This document shows, one piece after another, positions 1 to 18,114 of a DNA stretch of 20,732 nucleotides. Under the pieces are notes generated by a model. That model did no database searches, was not told the DNA's origin, and saw nothing but the letters and a program-made list of their open reading frames with translations. A program made the translations under genes and the position numbers. The DNA lies in NCBI GenBank assembly GCA_015039365.1, contig WION01000762.1:1-20732 (forward strand), written 5' to 3'. This stretch comes from Amanita rubescens. Taxonomy: Eukaryota > Basidiomycota > Agaricomycetes > Agaricales > Amanitaceae. Positions within the stretch are counted from its first letter, which is position 1. Each line of letters opens with the position of its first letter.

Positions 1-551
1 AATTGCATGCAACTGATTTTTCAGCTCAGTTTCTGCAGCTTTCTTTTCAATAAATTCCCAAGCCATCTCCAATTCCTCAGTTGCACCAGACTCAAAACCC
101 TGAGAATCATGGAAGATAAAGTTGCTTCCATGTATGTAATTTGATGCTCAATGTCATGTATACCTCTCTGTCATCATTAAATATGTTTGATTTATGCATC
201 ATCATTGAATTTACCTCAACTGATGGAATCAAATGAGTCTTGGAAGGTACTATTTGATTACCTATAAGGAACTATATAGTTGAAAAGAATAAGGAAGAGC
301 ATGATTCCTCACCATCCTTGCCATATATAACAGGCTTTGTTCCCTTGGCTACAATACAAACCTTCTCCAAGATGGTTGTCTTGCCTGCATTAGCCCTTCC
401 TATGACCAGAATACGAAAGTATGGGCATTTGTATTGTTCCTAAGGCCTGCAATATCTGTTAGATATTCACAGGTCACATGTCAGTATTGTGTCATGCTGT
501 CAAGAAGCATATTTTGACATACAATTGGTGATTACTAGTAATGTTTTCCAT
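1..551 (-). pseudogene. P-loop GTPase, left copy, 5' part only, probably broken
   Basis: This minus-strand fragment is cut by the window start. It matches the first four exons of the intact gene at 9734-9163. Exon 1 is about 551-523 (starting Met-Glu-Asn), exon 2 446-313 with the P-loop G-R-A-N-A-G-K-T-T, exon 3 249-215, and exon 4 from 167 leftwards with F-H-D-S-Q-G-F-E. Exon 2 lacks one base of a C run near 439-440 (CC here, CCC in the right copy). Exon 4 lacks one base near 131 (one T where the right copy has two). Exon 1 is also five bases shorter between its Met-Glu-Asn start and the donor, so joining it to exon 2 runs into a stop. Either this copy is dead or these are base-calling errors in runs; the amino acids outside the shifts are well kept. 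The remainder, possibly with its own microexon array, would lie left of the window. Confidence 0.75.
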
Positions 552-1225
552 TGTGCCAGAATACCAATAGTTTTAGAGACAAGGTCAGAAATGCAATAGT
601 AGTGTTTATCTTGAGAACTGAGTGCAATATTTGTAGACCTGTTGTGGTGGGGCAATCATTGTGTGTGAGGCTTAAAAGATCAATGTTTGCACAGCTGGAT
701 TGGTCCTTACTGAGCAGGCAGAGCACTGGATAATTAATGTCAGATCAATCAGTTGAGATGGTAAACAAGGTATTGAATGATGCTGGCAACCTTCAGAAGA
801 TGAACACAATACTTACATGAAGAGCAGCTGGACGGAGAGATTCAAGGCACGGTACTGTATTAGTACTCGCCAGTCAGGCTCGTGGGATCAATTGGCAGTT
901 GGGATGATGCTCACTGCCAGTTCAGGTGCAATAGATCTGTAATTTGAGGCAGCACTGGCTGGTGAGTTGAGCAAAGATTGAGGCAGAGGAGATCGATTCA
1001 GCGTGAGTAAAGATGTTCCAGCTTTGATCGATTTGATCGCACATTTGTGGAAGCGGAGCCCAATTATGGCTCCCGGCCATCATCTGAGCCGACTCGGAAG
1101 CCGCGCTCGCTGCTGCCACAACTTCCACTCTATGGCCACTCTCTCAAATGCTCCACTGAGACGCCCACGTCGGAAACGATTTGCCACGAGCTACCATCTC
1201 AGCTCCCGGCTACTATCTGTGCTGC
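1..1225. repeat. Direct repeat, left copy (GTPase 5' region)
   Basis: Position 1 aligns with 9165. The two stretches stay alike, with scattered substitutions and small indels, through the GTPase 5' exons and the sequence upstream of them. Similarity fades near 1225 and 10325, after the shared motif CGGAGCCCAATTA (about 1054 and 10226). The offset of about 9.16 kb and the same orientation point to a tandem duplication. The left copy runs off the window, so its full length is unknown. Confidence 0.9.
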
Positions 1226-3727: not shown

Positions 3728-6700
3728 TTAAACTTTGAAGTCAATGACCAGTTTGTAGAGGAATGAAACCAAAGCTTCTTTGTCATCTTCAGAAGGCATT
3801 TCAGACTCTGATGTAATGTGAGTCTGGATCTTCTCCACATAGTCTTGTTGAGTCTTGAATTGGTCCAAAGCCTCCATGAATGATTCCAAAAATGGCTTGT
3901 TTATCCAAAATGATAGCTTTGCCATTACGACAATTCCTTGAACTCATGTTAGTATATACATAGAGTGAAAGAATGGTATACTATATTACCAGCTAAGACT
4001 TGGCAGGCTGTAGGCTTATTACAGGAAATCAATTCTTCATCAATGGGAAAAACACAGCACATACAGTTACTGAAAATTCTCCTGGTTGGTCTCCAAACAA
4101 GGAGAAAAGTTCAGGCTGACTATAAGAAAGAGGAAATTTCCAATGTAATGCTGGACTTACACACTGTGTTAATTAATATTGAGATTAAAATATCCTGCAA
4201 CTTGATAACACTTACCTGAAAAGCTAGGAAAATCAAGGGTGTCAGGTGCAGTACATTCCAAGAGCCTCTTACAATCTATGGGTGGCAGTAAAATTAGAGA
4301 AAGCAAAACAGTCTAAAACTACTGTTCTCACTGTCTGTAATGTCCATCAAAGACATGGATGTGTCACTGGGATTTCAGAAAATTGAGGCATTTCACACAC
4401 TTCCTATAGGTTAACAGAATAATGTCAAAGGGCCTGTCTTAAAAAGGTTTAATATCACTTACTTCCTGTTGGTCATAAGATATGATGGCATGCTTTCATA
4501 AATTTAACAATACCACCCACTGCCTGGAGATTGTGGGACAAAATGAGGACTACTTTTCAGAAAAGTGTTCTGTCACTCACTGCCTATAGGTCATTGGGAA
4601 AACCACATTGGGCACTCTATTGTTGAGAATATGCAACATATTATCCCTCACTTCCTGTTTGTGGTTATCAAAGTTATAGAAAGGTCATTGTTCAGAGCAT
4701 TATCACTCACATGCTGTTGGTTATGAAGGAGAATGTGATAAAAGAACTTCAAAATAATGTGCACTGTACTCACTACCTGTTGGCCATAACATAGATGAAG
4801 TTATAATAAAGAGAAAATGGGCAAGTTACATTACTCACTTCCTGTTATTGTGGCAGAAGACATGATGAAATTGCCTTTCAGAACAATAGAATATGGTGCT
4901 CACAGCCTGATAGTCAAGATGATATGTTGCAATAAGTTTCACAAAAGTGTCTAATGCCACTCACTGCCTACAAGTTTATTATGCATGTCCGAATAGTTAG
5001 CCTTTCATACTCATGTACAATACCACTCACAATGTCATATCCCGTTCCAGGACTCCACCCAAACTCCGTGACCTCGGACCCCGATGGACTCCTGGACTAT
5101 ACCCATGGACCACTTTCCACCCATGTCGCATCTCATATCAAGCCTATGCCAAAACTCCGAAAACTCCGTGACAAACTCCGTGACGGACTCCGTCACAACT
5201 CCGTCACAACTCCGTGCATATTCGCTAAGTTCCTTTCTACGTATTTTCCATACTTGTTTCACCTCTTGTTTCATCTCGGGTATCCACTGGTATCATTATC
5301 CCTTCATACCATATGCTCTACTCCACTTCCTGTTCCATATCTCCATAGTTTCCTGTTCTCATCAGAACACGGCCATAACTCCCCTTGTCGGACTACGTAT
5401 ATAAGGCCTCACTTGTACTCATACAGTAGTCCGAATATCGACTTGGATTGTGCCCCAACTCGTATTGACTCCCTGTCTTTCATTGTCTAAGACCTCATCC
5501 AGACCGCTCGCCCTTCGGACTCCGGTCCCGGACTCCATCCCGACTCCAGAGCGTTCTCCAGAAGTTTAGGCAAGACGTACGTTAGCACGGCGCAGCTTGC
5601 ACGCTGAAGCCTAGCCTTTCCCCACTACGTCCGGACTCCGTTATACTCCATCCTTCCTGTCCGCGGCGTAGTTCCCGGGCTCCGTCCCAATTAGGATCAC
5701 CGTCCTTACACACAAGCTGTTCATCATATGTAGGAGAATATGTGATGTGACTACTTTAGCAAAGTGTGCAGAATGACTTACTTCCTGCTCATCAAATAGA
5801 TATTTTGAGATTTAATTTTGTGCAACTAGTATCACTCACTTCCTGTAGGTTATAGTAAGGGATTCAGAGGTGCACTCTTAGAAAACTTTGCAACATGACT
5901 CACATGCTGTTGACCATAAGATTTGATGACATCACAAACACTGGTTACTCACTTGCTGTTGGTCATAAGATGAGATGGTGATGAAACACTGTTTCATAAA
6001 ATTTGCAATAATCTCACATTCTGTTAAGTAATTATAAAAAAATGATATGATGAGATAGCATTTCAGGAATGAGCAATGACATTCACTCTCTGTGAAGAAG
6101 TGATTTACACAAGACAGATTTTGCAACAATCAGTGCTCACTAGCTGTAATCAGACACAAGAAATATGTGATGAGATGACTTGTGAAAACAACTGCAAGCA
6201 TCACTGACTTCCTGGAAAGATTTGAATCTTTCAAAAAAACACAAGATGTGATACCACACACTTCCTATTGAGCAAGGAAGATGTGATGAAGCAGGTTTCA
6301 AGAAAAGTTGAAATGTTTCTCACATCCTATGAGTCACAGTAGAATATGTGATGAGACAGATTTCCTGGGATTTGTGCAATGTTCTACTCACATACTATCA
6401 GTCACAGAAGAAGGTAGGCAGCTGTTTGAAAAAAGATGCAATGTTACTCACTTCCTGTCAATTGCATAATATAATCAGATTGCATTTCAGAAATGCACAA
6501 TGTCACTTACTTCCTGTTGGTCATAGGAAACTTGAATCTGATTACAATACCGAGAAATGTACATTGTCACTCACTCGCTTTTTGTCACAATAAGGATAGG
6601 ATGCGACCATTCATCTGAAATTTCCAATGACACTCACATTCTGATAATCATACAAAAAAAGAATGACATTGGCAATTGCATTTTGCAAAATCACTCACCC

Positions 6701-9700
6701 ACTGTTGGTCATAGGTAAGACTGCATTTGAAAATGTGTAATATACTCACTGCCTGTTAGAATATATCATGAAGAGATTGGCTCTCAAGGATATATTACTC
6801 ACTCCCTATTCAAGGGAAAATCAGAAAACTGTTTTCCAGAGAGCCATGCAGCTTCACTTACATACTGTTGTTCATACTATGTGTATCAGATTTAACTAGG
6901 CAAACTTGACTCACAATCTGTTGCTCACATGATTTGATGACAAAAGAATGTGTATCATCACTCACTTGCTATTGGCAGTGATGGTTCTATGAGATGTAAT
7001 CATGATGGCAGAAAATGTTGTAGTCTTACATGCTGTCAAGAGCTCAATTATCATGATGCAACTAATAGAAAAATGAAGACACTTGCTCTTTTCATCTCTG
7101 GCTGTTGATTGTAATATGAGGAGTGCCATTGCAACCCTGCAAGCAATGTTACTTACACTCTATTTGTTGTGCAATGAGATGTGACACAATTCTGGGTGCA
7201 TCAATCTAGTGTCAACTCACTTCCTACAAAAAGAATAATGTGATGAAGCTGTCATGTAGTTAATACCAAATAATGCTTACAAACTGCACATCATAAAATT
7301 GGAGGCATAAGGCTGCCAAGTTCTTTGAAATGTAAGATTCTCACATACTGTTGCTCACAACTCAAGATTGCACATTTGAAGATGGTGTTACTCACTTCCT
7401 AATGATCATATTGCAAGATGTGATCTGATTGCTGGAAGAGGCAAGATCAAAATCCTCACTCTCTGCATGATACAGTGGGGATGTGATGAGCTTTCCACAA
7501 CAAAAAAGAGTGTTGTGTCACACACCTCCTGTTAATCATGGAATAGGAAGTAACAAGTCTTGCTGTCAAGGAAATCTCACTAACTTTCTATTGATTTCAG
7601 GATGAGCTATATGTATGTCCTGAGGTTGTTTCAGAAGAAGTGTAACCCACATCCTATTAGTTGCAAGGTGTTAATCATGAGACATCCATGAAGATATGTA
7701 AGTCACTACTTACTGCCTGTTGTTGCACAACAAAATAATTAAATTGTATAATTGGAGAAAGAATGACTGTATCATTCACTTGCTGTTCATAGGATGAGAG
7801 GATTAGAAAAGCTGTCACTCAGATAAAAATATAATGTACCAACTTTCTGTTGTTTATTGAATCAGGTCATACTACATACATGTACATAAATTGTAATGTC
7901 ACTCACTTTCTGCAGGCAAGAGGATTCAATTTCATGTAAGTAAAATGGTAATACAATGCTGCTCACTGCCTGACAATCTTTTAGTGTAACATGATTGAAC
8001 CACATACAAAGCAGCTCACATCCTGTTTGTCATATGATAAGTTGCTACCATAAATTGAGGATTGTTACTCACTGCCTGTTGAGAATGTTACAAGTTTGTT
8101 AAGCAGTAAATTATAGATCATTCACAAACTGTTGGCCATCAAACAAACCATGTCAAATGTATGCTGGTTCATTTGTATCTACCCACTTTGATCCCTATTA
8201 TTCAATTTTGTTGCAAAGTGAAATATAACTTACTTTTATTTCATTTGAGGAAGTCTGAAGTATGGATAACCAAATTGCCATAGAAATGGATTGAATAAAT
8301 TGACCACCTGCTGCATAAGGTGTTTTAAAATAGCTGTCATTTTATAGACATGACACTGACATTTCTGTCCACCTGTTCTCAATTGAGTTTTCCAACTCCA
8401 TAACTATTTGCAAAATATGCATACCCAGAAATGTGGGAATTTAGTGATAACCTGAAGAATGAGGGTTTCCCATTCAGTGATGTCTTCAAATGCATGTCTG
8501 GGATTGGTAAACATCTGCATGTGGTAATTTGTAAGTGATCCTCACTAACTCAAGTGCAGATTTAACACAGAGATCCAGATTATTCATCTGTGTTGAAACA
8601 AAAAGCTGGTGGATAATGTCATCATCAATTGCATCAGCAGTTGTCTGGGTCAATTCAGGACAGTTCTCCTCTGGTAAATCCATGTCTATTGAACAGCATT
8701 ATCTCTATTTAGAGAATGATATGTTGTTATTCTGACCTTCCAATCTCACATATCCTTTGGGAGGGTATTGAGCATTCAATACTTTGGGAAGATAAACAGT
8801 CTGGAAAGTAGTTTCAGCATTCTCACGGGCCTTACCCCACTTATCCTCAATCTCAACATCCAGCAAGTTGGCATATTCATTGATTATTTGACCATCAAAT
8901 TTGGTGAATACAGCTACCAAAGGGACTATAAAAATGCAAGTTGTTGGTCAGTATGTGTCTTGCAGAAGGGAAGCATGAAAAAAAACCAAAGGCAGACCAA
9001 ATAAACATTGTGAGAGATAAATACCTTGGGACTTACCTTTGCCAGTCCCCCTGCTAAAGAACTCAAGCTCTGTAGGTAGAATGGGTCGAGGACTGTCCAT
9101 GGGTATGCAATACCTACAAGAAGCTTGGTCAGCTAGTTTTATATAGCCAAAGTCAAAAATACCAAATTGCATGCAACTGATTTTTCAGCTCAGTTTCTGC
9201 AGCTTTCTTTTCAATAAATTCCCAGGCCATCTCCAATTCATCAGCTGCACCAGACTCAAAACCCTGAGAATCATGGAAGATAAAGTTGCTTCCATTGTAT
9301 GTAATTTGATGCTCAATGTCATGTATACCTCTCTGTCATCATTAAATATGTTTGATTATGCATCATTGTTGAATTTACCTCAACTGATGGAATCAAATGA
9401 GTCTTGGAAGGTACTATTTGATTACCTATAAGGAACTAACTAGTTGAAAGTGAATAAGGGAGGGCATGCTTTCTCACCATCCTTGTCATAGATAACAGGC
9501 TTTGTTCCCTTGGCTACAATACAAACCTTCTCCAAGATGGTTGTCTTGCCTGCATTAGCCCTTCCTATGACCAGAATGCGAAAGTATGGGCATTTGTATC
9601 GTTCCCTAAGGCCTGCAATATCTGTGTCAGATGTTCACAGGTTACATGTCAGTATTGTGTCAATGCTGTCAAGATACATATTTTGACATACCATTTGGCC

Positions 9701-9734
9701 CTGATGTACTAGTAATGTTTTCCATTGCTGACAT
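3728..9734 (-). CDS. P-loop GTPase with an array of 3-nt microexons (about 70 exons)
   Basis: The product is a G-domain protein that should bind and hydrolyse GTP; its cellular role is unknown to me. Exons on the minus strand are: 9734-9692, 9612-9478 (P-loop G-R-A-N-A-G-K-T-T), 9413-9379, 9332-9163 (D-I-E-H-Q-I-T-Y, then the G3-like H-D-S-Q-G-F-E), 9113-9037 (Y-C-I-P-M-D), 8925-8737 (G4 motif T-K-F-D), 8685-8546 (Q-L-F-V-S-T-Q and L-D-L-C-V-K), 8514-8452, 8403-8373, 8333-8308, 8254-8234 and 8194-8183. Then come 54 triplet exons plus exons of 15, 8 and 5 nt, and a last exon 3936-3728. Phases agree across every join, and exon lengths total 1341 nt, or 446 codons plus TAA. The start at 9734 is the first ATG of an open exon; a second ATG is at 9725. 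The GTPase part is sure. Between 8452 and 8234 the splicing is less certain, because 8403-8245 also reads open without the inner introns, and the 31-nt intron 8545-8515 is very short. The last acceptor is AAG rather than YAG. The C-terminal exon encodes an acidic stretch (E-S-E-M-P-S-E-D-D-K-E) with no family I know. Confidence 0.8.
3990..4967 (-). other. Microexon array, last block
   Basis: Triplet exons, by lowest plus-strand position and codon: 4965 GCA, 4904 GCT, 4839 GAA, 4774 GTA, 4711 CAT, 4652 GAA, 4581 GCA, 4521 GCA, 4463 GAA, 4401 GAA, 4332 ACA, 4273 ATT. The array then becomes irregular: an 8-nt exon 4223-4216 (between CTAG and GTAAGT), TGT at 4161, a 5-nt exon 4069-4065 and CTG at 3990. 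The 8, 3, 5 and 3 nt together restore the phase needed by the final exon at 3936. The last small exon could instead be 18 nt (4007-3990), which keeps the same frame and also reads open. The 8-nt exon could alternatively be a zero-length site, since TTTTCAG lies directly against GTAAGT. Confidence 0.7.
5028..5032. repeat. Target-site duplication, left (CACAA)
   Basis: The five bases CACAA directly precede the TG of the solo LTR and match the five bases after its CA end. Confidence 0.93.
5153..5217 (+). repeat. ACTCCGT motif cluster inside the LTR
   Basis: Six copies of ACTCCG, most followed by T, occur at 10-12-bp steps, several as ACTCCGTGAC or ACTCCGTCAC. More copies of GGACTCC lie elsewhere in the LTR. 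The cluster is upstream of the TATA box, so it may be a promoter or enhancer repeat of the element; this is inference. Confidence 0.75.
5398..5404 (+). promoter_or_regulatory. TATA box of the LTR
   Basis: The sequence TATATAA lies at about position 366 of the LTR and is a plausible core promoter for transcription from the element. It points antisense to the GTPase gene. Confidence 0.6.
5711..5715. repeat. Target-site duplication, right (CACAA)
   Basis: The sequence CACAA follows the terminal CA of the LTR. On the minus strand it reads TTGTG, that is, the last two bases of the microexon CTT plus the first three bases of the donor. Confidence 0.93.
5714..7032 (-). other. Microexon array, middle block
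   Basis: Triplet exons, by lowest plus-strand position and codon: 7030 CAT, 6966 CAA, 6915 ATT, 6862 TAT, 6803 GGA, 6750 GCA, 6699 TGG, 6638 AAT, 6575 CGA, 6511 GAA, 6452 GAA, 6392 TAT, 6324 GAT, 6262 GAA, 6209 GAA, 6141 CTA, 6087 AGA, 6018 AAT, 5953 CAA, 5904 CAT, 5840 GAA, 5782 GAA, 5714 CTT. Introns are 46-66 nt. The unit at 6575 has an AAG acceptor instead of YAG. The unit at 6209 has the donor GTCAGT. Introns share a layout: a donor often followed by ACATTGCA-like sequence, a middle TTCTGAAA, then CATCACAT, and an end close to TATGACCAACAG. Confidence 0.82.
7033..8254 (-). other. Microexon array, first block (minus-strand 5' end)
   Basis: Lead-in exons are 8254-8234 (21 nt, T-S-S-N-E-I-K) and 8194-8183 (12 nt, G-S-K-W). 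Triplet exons follow, given by lowest plus-strand position and codon: 8126 TTT, 8073 GCA, 8020 GAT, 7967 GCA, 7907 AAA, 7844 AAA, 7780 CAA, 7714 GCA, 7651 GAT, 7585 AAA, 7526 GAG, 7460 AGA, 7396 GAA, 7345 TAT, 7281 TTT, 7221 GAA, 7157 AGT. A 15-nt exon, 7101-7087 (P-E-M-K-R), closes the block; it follows a CAG and ends at GCAAGT, the usual form of a GC donor. Every triplet is preceded by CAG or TAG and followed by GT, in most cases within GTGAGT or GTAAGT. Some donors are weaker (GTTGGT after 7844, GTTAGT after 7585, GTGTGT after 7526). Confidence 0.8.
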
Positions 9735-16200: not shown

Positions 16201-18114
16201 ATGGAAGCGTATAAGCGCCAAGTCCAGGTGCAAGCGGCCCGTCATAAGGCTCTGAGCAGACCTTGGTGGTTCATTTCCGCCATTCTCCCTCTTATCTGCG
16301 CAGCAACAGCCCTCTAGCCAATCTATTTACGATTCTCGCATTTTTTGAACCATGGGTCGTTTTCACCCAACCCATCCTGGGACGAAGAGCCCATAACACA
16401 GCTTTGTGAGTCCTTCACTCTCAACCACTGTTCAATAAACACAACATGACTTTACAGAATCTACGCTCTCAACTCGGTAGCCCTCGTAACAGCTATATCC
16501 GCCAACATTCTCCTCATCCTGAACTTTGCTCGTAGAATCCGGTACTTCATATCCAACCAGCCACAATCTTCCTCTGGCAAGTCCCCCTCCTCTTACCGTC
16601 CGCCTAACCACTAACCTCCCAACAGGTACGTCTCTGGAACAGCCCACATCGTCGCACTCAGCTGCACCAAGGCGGGCGTTGACGAGATCCACTCCCAAGC
16701 CTACTATTACGCCCTCATCTCCTGCGTCATGCACTCTTCAACGCAACCTTACTCCTCACATCCGTCCTACCCACCCTCCACTGGCCCATCTTCCGGGACA
16801 CATTCCCCGCATACCGGCCCCAAGTTCTCCTCTCAGCCCCCCAACGCACCTCATGTTCCAAACCATGATGTTCACGCTCTACCTCGCCTTAGGCGGGGGA
16901 ATATTTTCCTCCATCGAAGGCTGGACGTACCTCGATGGGATATACTGGACAAACTATTCGTTGCTCACGATCGGCTTTGGTTCGGATTTCCTACCTACGA
17001 GTCCGGCGGCCAAGATCGTCTTGATACCCTACACCGCGATGGGCATACTCGTGCTGGGTCTCATGTGACGAGTATCCGCGCGCTATTCGTAGCGCGGTTC
17101 AGAGAGCGAATCGTATGGGGAAAAGAAGTCATGAAAAATCAACGCCAAAAATGGTTCCAAGTCCAACTTCGGGGCTACGAAAAAATTCTTCCGTCTCTTG
17201 TCTTGGGTCAGAAATCCGAGAAAGACTAGACCGAGAGTCCTACGTTTCAAACGCCGATAAAGTGGAGTAGGGACGAATGGGAGGTAATGAGGTATGTGAA
17301 GAAGAGCGCGGATGATAGGAGGAAGTATTTATCGCTTTTGGTGACGTTTACGTTGTTCGGGGTCATCTGGTTCGGAGGCGCGCTCATATTCTGGATAACA
17401 GAACGGGTGAGGAGTCAAAACCCTTGTTTAACACCATTTCTTTTTTGACATTGTCTGCACAGCACTTGGAACAACAAGCGGGAAAATACACCTACGCCCT
17501 CCCTCTACTTCACCTACGTCTCCCTCATAACCATCGGCTACGGTGACGTCATACCCCGGTCTCGCGCCGGTCGACCCGTTTTCGTAGCTTGGTCCCTCGC
17601 CGCCATCCCCGCCATGACGCTCCTCATCTCTGACATTGGCGCCACCCTGGCAACATGGGTAAAAGAAGGCCCCATCGAAGGCATCATTGGTAAATGGCTC
17701 ATTGGGACGGTCGACATTTACCGGGACGACGAACAAAGCGAAGACGGCGAGGGGAAAGAAAAAGACGCAGACGGCGGGTCTGCTCCCGTGGTTCCCAAAA
17801 AGCCGGATGCGAATATGTCCGAAAAGGAAAAGAGTGATAAACACGAGGTGACGAGGGCTATGAGGCTCATTCGGGGCGTTCGACAAATTATCCAAGATGA
17901 TGAAAACAAAAAGTATACGTGGGAGGAGTGGGAAGAGATTATCACGCTGTTGGGGTTGAATCGAGATAGAGGGTGTGAGGATGGTGATGTTTCGAATTGG
18001 ACGTGGTTGGGAGATGAGGGGCCGTTGTTTGCTAGAGGGGAGTCGGAGAAGATTTGGATTTTGGAGAGGATTCGGGAACAGGTGGATCAAAAGTTGGGGG
18101 AGATGTTGAAGTAG
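16201..18114 (+). CDS. TOK1: TOK1-type outward-rectifier potassium channel, with frameshifts
   Basis: Fungal TOK channels have eight membrane segments and two pore loops and let K+ out at the plasma membrane. The first segment follows R-P-W-W-F-I-S. Pore 1 has T-I-G-F-G (near 16970) and pore 2 has T-I-G-Y-G-D (near 17532). The last membrane segment includes A-M-T-L-L-I-S-D-I-G-A-T-L. A charged cytoplasmic tail follows. Introns are 16406-16457, 16577-16625 (a GC donor, GCAAGT, to ACAG) and 17407-17462. The GC intron is supported because its join makes a Trp-Tyr codon pair where the family has W-Y. Along 1.9 kb I see about seven one-base shifts, near 16312, 16562, 16737, 16849, 17066, 17267 and 17466. 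All but the last are losses, mostly within doubled bases, and the amino acids around them are well kept. The start is tentative; the frame is open back to 16138, so an upstream first exon is possible. Confidence 0.85.

Follow-up and report, generated by a model that had tools for sequence, protein, structure and literature searches.

Gene organization

The window analyzed here, a 20,732-nt contig (WION01000762.1, C718 below) of the 75.7-Mb genome of the Agaricales basidiomycete Amanita rubescens, carries on its minus strand a gene that we strongly favor reading as one for a GTPase, divided into single-codon exons. The predicted gene model extends from an ATG at 9734 to a TAA at 3728 and consists of 69 exons and 68 introns; 55 of the exons are exactly 3 nt long and one is 15 nt long. 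The introns have a median length of 57 nt, 62 of the 68 lie in phase 0, and the 1,398-nt predicted coding sequence yields a protein of 465 residues without an early stop. This reading is favored because the peptide encoded by the array of 3-nt exons matches the protein P0002 of a relative without a gap, because the pooled triplets of such arrays are free of stop codons and because the splice sites are kept as the introns diverge.

An initial annotation had described a minus-strand run of 54 triplets between 3990 and 8128, each flanked by a splice acceptor and a donor and located downstream of a GTPase domain in the same gene and direction. The run itself is borne out, with sites from 8128 to 4161, and the single minus-strand model joins it to the GTPase domain and keeps the joined triplets open in frame 0 as proposed. 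The 13 Glu and eight Ala codons that had been reported recur among the 53 triplets inside 8128-4161. The total had to be revised, given that two upstream triplets (CAG at 8310 and TGG at 8185) bring the model to 55 and that CTG at 3992, if it was counted as the 54th triplet, falls in a 25-nt exon. Moreover, the array does not consist purely of 3-nt units but also contains a 15-nt exon, a long terminal repeat (LTR)-like insert and a zero-length exon (Table 1).

Table 1. Parts of the predicted minus-strand gene and the element inserted in it, in window coordinates
Feature	Position	Strand	Basis
Eight ordinary coding exons: start codon and GTPase domain (GRANAGKTT, HDSQG, TKFD) up to FPHFW	8425..9734	-	Open frame, canonical introns
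Small pre-array exons: 12-nt VDRN, 8372-8361; 3-nt CAG, 8310-8308; 21-nt TSSNEIK, 8254-8234	8234..8372	-	Gene model
3-nt exon TGG (Trp)	8183..8185	-	TGG-then-TTT array start in most other loci
Array part 1: 40 exons of 3 nt, TTT 8128 to CTT 5716, introns 46-66 nt	5714..8128	-	
15-nt exon CCAGAGATGAAAAGA (PEMKR), GCAAGT donor	7087..7101	-	15 nt in all copies
LTR-like element, 678 nt, TGT...ACA, 5-bp target duplication TTGTG	5033..5710	-	Empty sites in other copies
Array part 2: 13 exons of 3 nt, GCA 4967 to TGT 4163-4161	4161..4967	-	
Zero-length exon AG|GTAAGT within the 109-nt intron between ATT and TGT	4215..4216	-	Predicted recursive splice site
Three closing exons: 4115-4065 (PELFSLFGDQPGEFSVT); 4014-3990 (PTACQVLA); 3936-3728 (IVVMAKLSFW...FKV, stop)	3728..4115	-	

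The part encoded by the ordinary exons shares 79% identity with P0002, and the least certain element of the whole model is the 31-nt intron at 8545-8515. The residues TSSNEIKWFA are the same in the window model and P0002, and WF is present in P0002, P0015, P0060, P0028, P0033 and P0038. An alternative 12-nt exon (GGATCAAAGTGG, 8194-8183) is possible, yet the relatives show Trp alone. The PEMKR exon is stop-free and 15 nt long in all five locus copies despite its differing sequence. At the array end, a zero-length exon (AG|GT) was called in 12 of the 13 parsed loci, and copy c73a carries AG|GC at this position; the recurring AG|GT is likely to be a recursive splice site. An 8-nt exon (CTTTTCAG, 4223-4216) was rejected because the AG that should precede it is missing in four of the five copies, and 4216/4215 is thus better read as a zero-length exon. 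Consistent with this assignment, a single residue separates I from PEL or PGL in P0028, P0033 and P0038. The closing exons align with the C-terminal parts of P0033, P0028, P0038 and P0088.

Splice sites and codons of the arrays

The strict motif YAG-NNN-GTRAG was counted 40 times across the 3,418-nt array (insert excluded) and never on its opposite strand; 500 dinucleotide shuffles averaged 0.26 occurrences, with no shuffle above 2. At spacings from 0 to 15 nt other than 3 nt, the acceptor-donor pattern appears at most once each. An origin by chance or base composition is rejected, because the array has 40 strict units and no shuffle more than two. A period-3 artifact is likewise rejected, since intron lengths are spread across all remainders on division by 3 (109, 103 and 116 of 328 introns for remainders 0, 1 and 2). 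Retention of a single array intron would cause a frameshift or introduce a stop in 279 of the 328 introns examined.

Arrays were delineated by two chain parses. The first parse favored 3-nt exons and penalized stops, and its seven exons inside the LTR-like insert were dropped. The flat parse used no stop penalty and one equal penalty for every exon length from 0 to 30. At some sites, a reading shifted 4 nt downstream is also available (AG|TGA or TAA|GT) and would give stops; neither chain parse selects this register. The flat parse was pooled over eight distinct arrays, with the near-copies W, c73a, c737b, c73b and C328 left out, and yielded 381 exons of 3 nt, compared with 12 of length 0 and five each of 12 and 6 nt. 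None of the 381 triplets is a stop codon, whereas 28.9 stops are expected from the position-wise base composition (Poisson probability of approximately 3e-13). The triplets also differ from ordinary coding sequence in their third positions: the eight two-fold codon pairs end in A or T 205 times and in G or C nine times in the pooled arrays, versus 88 and 71 times in the ordinary exons of the window gene. This avoidance may be explained in part by NAG codons, which would place a second AG beside the donor.

Match to an unbroken related protein

What would the joined triplets encode? A protein search with the GTPase part of the model as the query gave 1,279 proteins, of which 120 were listed, and the listed matches include proteins of 378-478 residues on contigs of just 1.4-1.7 kb. 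Such contigs are very likely transcripts, because the A. rubescens genes of this family take at least 4 kb. P0002, with 378 residues on a 1,494-nt contig, very likely derives from a transcript of another Amanita. Downstream of the GTPase domain, the sequence is TSSNEIKWFAEAKKQADGEREYFQ... in P0002 and TSSNEIKWFADAKKQADKEREYFES... in the window model. An ungapped alignment of the array peptide with P0002 covers 56 residues, of which 54% are identical, with an expect value (E) of 2.7e-18 among the 120 proteins and of 3.6e-8 when scaled to 5.8 billion sequences.

The match extends to other copies and other relatives. The c737a copy of the array scores 64.3 bits against P0002, versus a maximum of 30.4 bits for 200 shuffled peptides, and no protein match was obtained when the joined c737a triplets were read in frame 2 or 3. 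Replacement of the GTPase part by the full 465-residue model raised the bit score from 538 to 624 for P0002, from 425 to 529 for P0033, from 429 to 520 for P0028 and from 418 to 499 for P0038. In addition, array C73d matches P0002 (E of 1e-12) and array C46 matches P0060 (E of 3.7e-7).

Divergence between and within arrays

In the tandem paralogues c737a and c737b, none of the 106 donor bases and none of the 106 acceptor bases has changed, whereas 231 of the 2,521 intron bases (9%) differ, and none of the 52 indel events falls within an exon. Between c737b and c73b, one deletion of approximately 120 nt in c73b takes out exactly two units. The last exon varies between copies through in-frame indels.

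Within single arrays, intron identity is approximately 0.62 in c737a, compared with 0.61 after shuffling, and reaches 97% in C46 and 98% in C773. A tandem signal by unit distance was rejected: c737a showed none, and clear likeness was confined to C46 and C773 among the six arrays compared, without a single period. The C46 array (L027, L037) contains 62 unit pairs that are at least 85% identical, and the codon differs in 37 of them, hinting that codons change faster there than the surrounding introns.

Gene family and locus copies

The gene had been treated as a single case; the gene itself stands, but its family has 150 or more matching loci in the genome when alleles are counted. At least 150 matches were obtained both with the G3 exon (150 scored of 338 candidates, all matched) and with the last exon (150 scored of 213 candidates). 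For pairing, 146 of the 150 last-exon matches were used, and four with an internal stop were dropped. Of the 150 G3 exons, 106 could be paired with a last exon at a distance of 3.1-7.7 kb. The formula (distance - 1700)/63 yields 38-70 units where 40-71 were counted, and gives an estimate of approximately 5,300 units for the 106 paired loci, alleles counted separately. The A. rubescens genome is likely to hold several thousand 3-nt exons.

The 20 loci L013-L032, which include five copies of the window's locus and several near-identical alleles among the remainder, all carry 7-13 sites on one strand and zero or one on the other. The flat parse of 13 loci gave 38-68 exons of 3 nt per array. By the first parse, the arrays C773, C168, C25, c737a and C46 have 40, 49, 50, 54 and 71 exons, and 39, 44, 45, 52 and 68 exons of exactly 3 nt were found in them by the flat parse. 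Six hand-picked distant loci have 18, 24, 0, 5, 35 and 8 sites. Overall, arrays of as many as approximately 70 triplets are present at nearly all of the family loci sampled. Locus L055 (C439:967300-971300) contains no 3-nt exon site in the 4 kb downstream of its G domain and is a possible array-free form.

C718, C737 and C73 hold three near-identical copies of the window's locus in one assembly, approximately 96-99% alike over the gene, and look like alleles or haplotype contigs. The minus strand of window positions 1-604 corresponds to the 5' region of this gene and begins a second copy in tandem, which continues on C737 and C73 with its remaining exons and its array.

The deposited A. rubescens models P0003, P0009, P0019 and P0045 end near the array start, and P0088 skips over the array. 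Because all five inspected models fail in one of these two ways, large-scale mis-annotation of the GTPase family is probable. As a separate observation, the Joint Genome Institute (JGI) proteins P0111 and P0112 of distant relatives have sequence of low complexity, for example EEEEYHHHHHYLEYEEYL, where the linker would lie; arrays in other fungal species would be compatible with this.

Predicted protein structure

A 251-residue draft of the window protein matched no Pfam family at 0.001. The MMR_HSR1 family (PF01926, cut-off of 21.9 bits) scored below its cut-off in P0002 (19.2), P0033 (18.1) and P0038 (16.1) and above it in P0030 (36.1). Neither NACHT nor ankyrin was among the Pfam families found at E of 1 or better in these four relatives.

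The AlphaFold2 model of P0038, with a predicted template modeling score of 0.79, contains a mostly confident GTPase domain and a C-terminal helical bundle (residues 361-478). The stretch equivalent to the array (residues 316-359) has a predicted local distance difference test (pLDDT) score of 35-38, and the array-encoded stretch is probably flexible. In the P0002 model, the equivalent stretch forms helices with a pLDDT of about 50-65, and a charged helix is a possible conformation of the array peptide. The top-ranked structure matches are immunity-related GTPases (IRGs), namely Irga6, Irgb6 and Irgb10, over the G and helical domains, together with GM4951, which we take to be an IRG. EngB-type GTPases and septins score close behind the IRGs on the G domain alone, and a Foldseek search with the P0002 model returned the same GTPase class at TM-scores of at most 0.41 by query length. 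The IRG matches share 10-12% identity, and their likeness to the window family is one of predicted structure. An immune or recognition role of the family is a guess based on these models.

Interpretation

It is very probable, as judged from the sequence, that the window gene contains 55 single-codon exons that are joined, upon removal of predicted spliceosomal introns of approximately 57 nt, into a variable linker between the GTPase and C-terminal helical domains. We propose that the spliceosome would take each short intron as the unit of recognition (intron definition), as exons of 3 nt fall below the size that exon definition requires. Adjacent introns would be removed one after another, and the main message would keep every codon. 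In evolution, the unit of change, and specifically of gain and loss, would be the codon plus its intron, as we infer. Unequal exchange or slippage would duplicate or delete whole units, allowing the linker to gain or lose residues without a frameshift, and a point change in a triplet would swap a single residue. The near-identical introns of C46 and C773 (two of six arrays) and the two-unit deletion in one allele are the outcome predicted by such gain and loss. With less confidence, we suggest that the GTPase may be of the immunity-related or dynamin-like kind and that the linker may be a fast-changing recognition or interaction segment.

Several observations weigh against the splicing of the array codon by codon. 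The exon models were partly set by eye. Because YAG-NNN-GTRAG sites served as the training set for the splice matrices, the exon-length result depends on the shuffle test for independence. The contigs of P0002, P0060 and P0033 were classified as transcripts by their size and absence of introns rather than by a label. These three proteins come from other species, because no listed A. rubescens genome row exceeds 90% identity (best values among the rows listed: 90% for P0002, 89% for P0060 and 79% for P0033), and no A. rubescens transcript was recognized among those rows. P0002 parallels the window model only to approximately residue 361 and then has a different end. A protein search with residues 300-465 alone found nothing at E of 0.001, although local comparison with proteins of the same database was clear. 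Among the 16 array peptides compared, those of C23, C328 and C101 gave no match at E of 1, and those of C117, C168 and C124 gave weak matches only (E of 0.02-0.7). The first parse placed a TGA triplet in C117 despite its stop penalty; the flat parse placed none but yielded more odd exon lengths, and the C117 array may be degraded. Between c737a and c737b, triplets change at approximately the intron rate and all 11 differences replace the residue; the array peptide is thus weakly conserved at best. Finally, the window allele may be impaired by the LTR-like insert in one of its donors.

The alternative that survives best, which we regard as possible but clearly less probable, is combinatorial alternative splicing, in which each message keeps a different subset of triplets and one gene gives rise to many linkers, as is reported for the NACHT-ANK genes of truffles. 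This nearest precedent is described in such terms in three papers (PMC4986451, PMC9815663, PMC10197012). Moreover, the phase-0 introns of the array would let any exon subset keep the frame, and a zero-length exon is a unit able to add no codon. However, the P0002 linker equals the full codon set of the window in length, so at least that message kept essentially all codons, and two isoforms of a single gene were not encountered. It is improbable that the arrays were formerly spliced and now decay, with the A. rubescens genes as pseudogenes and their triplets neutral. The intron-like rate of triplet change, the LTR-like element within a donor of the window's allele and the untidy parse of C117 would fit decay, but no splice site has been lost in the compared copy pairs, eight separate arrays contain no stops and the last exons differ by in-frame indels. 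A non-coding satellite in one long intron, removed as a whole and with splice-like motifs as its tandem-repeat core, is scarcely credible: although the units have a common consensus (GTGAGTGAcAtTgcacat ... TATgAccAACAG) and those of C46 resemble recent copies, the triplet peptide matches P0002, the 381 triplets contain no stop, GT and AG are unchanged between the paralogues compared whereas the introns changed, and the near-shuffled intron identity of c737a implies that the motifs outlived any repeat.

Beyond the constitutive single-codon splicing proposed for the window gene, we lean toward a broader view, in which an immune-type GTPase family has partly turned into a codon satellite with thousands of single-codon exons at well over 100 loci and with codon plus intron as the heritable unit. 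These arrays would have arisen independently of those of truffles and would point to a general fungal route to receptor diversity. If the arrays are spliced as predicted, they constitute an extreme test of spliceosomal intron definition, with 68 introns in a 1.4-kb coding sequence and dozens of successive exons that are too short for binding, one of them of length zero. Protein length would evolve codon by codon without the risk of a frameshift, and receptor diversification via codon-sized exons would become testable beyond truffles, given the predicted immunity-GTPase-like structure.

Comparison with known systems

The initial annotation knew of no documented run of this kind in a fungus. That view does not hold, given that the NACHT-ANK (nank) genes of Tuber melanosporum have dozens of 3-bp exons, as reported by Iotti et al. 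2012 according to papers that cite it (PMC9815663, PMC4986451, PMC3689799, PMC10197012). The window family shares with the nank genes the dozens of 3-bp exons (55 in the window model), an expanded family of nucleoside triphosphate-binding proteins, a mycorrhizal fungus as the host and a varying protein part. The nank products are described there as ascomycete NLR proteins with ankyrin repeats, whose C-terminal recognition domain is reported to undergo alternative splicing. In contrast, the proteins studied here are basidiomycete GTPases with an array that codes for an internal linker, and essentially all codons are kept in the one transcript that can be compared. The NACHT-ANK receptor architecture was absent at E of 1 from the Pfam scan of the four relatives.

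Schistosome MEG genes form a micro-exon gene family. Aphid bicycle genes encode putative effectors and have approximately 17 exons on average, almost all internal exons being of one phase (PMC9168663). Both families share many tiny exons, expansion and fast evolution with the present one, whereas the exons here are single codons in a GTPase. Exons of codon size or less that are spliced precisely are described for Drosophila homothorax (3 bp; PMC7392893) and Arabidopsis APC11 (1 nt; PMC4674806), but they are isolated, whereas more than 40 occur here in one gene. Near-identical introns produced by duplication are shared with two introns gained in one Cryptococcus gene by repeat expansion (PMC2395259) and with introners, elements inserted into many genes (PMC9860276); the copies compared here sit within one array, and each brings a codon.

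The open-access literature searched for Amanita microexons and for the A. rubescens genome and GTPases contained no report of an Amanita microexon array. The kind of array is already known from truffles; as far as open-access text shows, its occurrence in GTPase genes and in this phylum is new, as are the zero-length exon and the scale.

LTR-like insertion and neighboring sequence

The LTR-like element splits the donor that follows the CTT exon, after donor position +3. It is missing from c737a, c73a, c737b and c73b. Among the matches listed, at least 35 further copies in the genome share 94-99% identity with it, and several of them lie on the same strand in pairs separated by 2.8-2.9 kb, an arrangement typical of short elements with two LTRs. 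Elsewhere in the window, the plus strand at 16526-17068 encodes an ion channel pore domain (PF07885, E of 6e-9).

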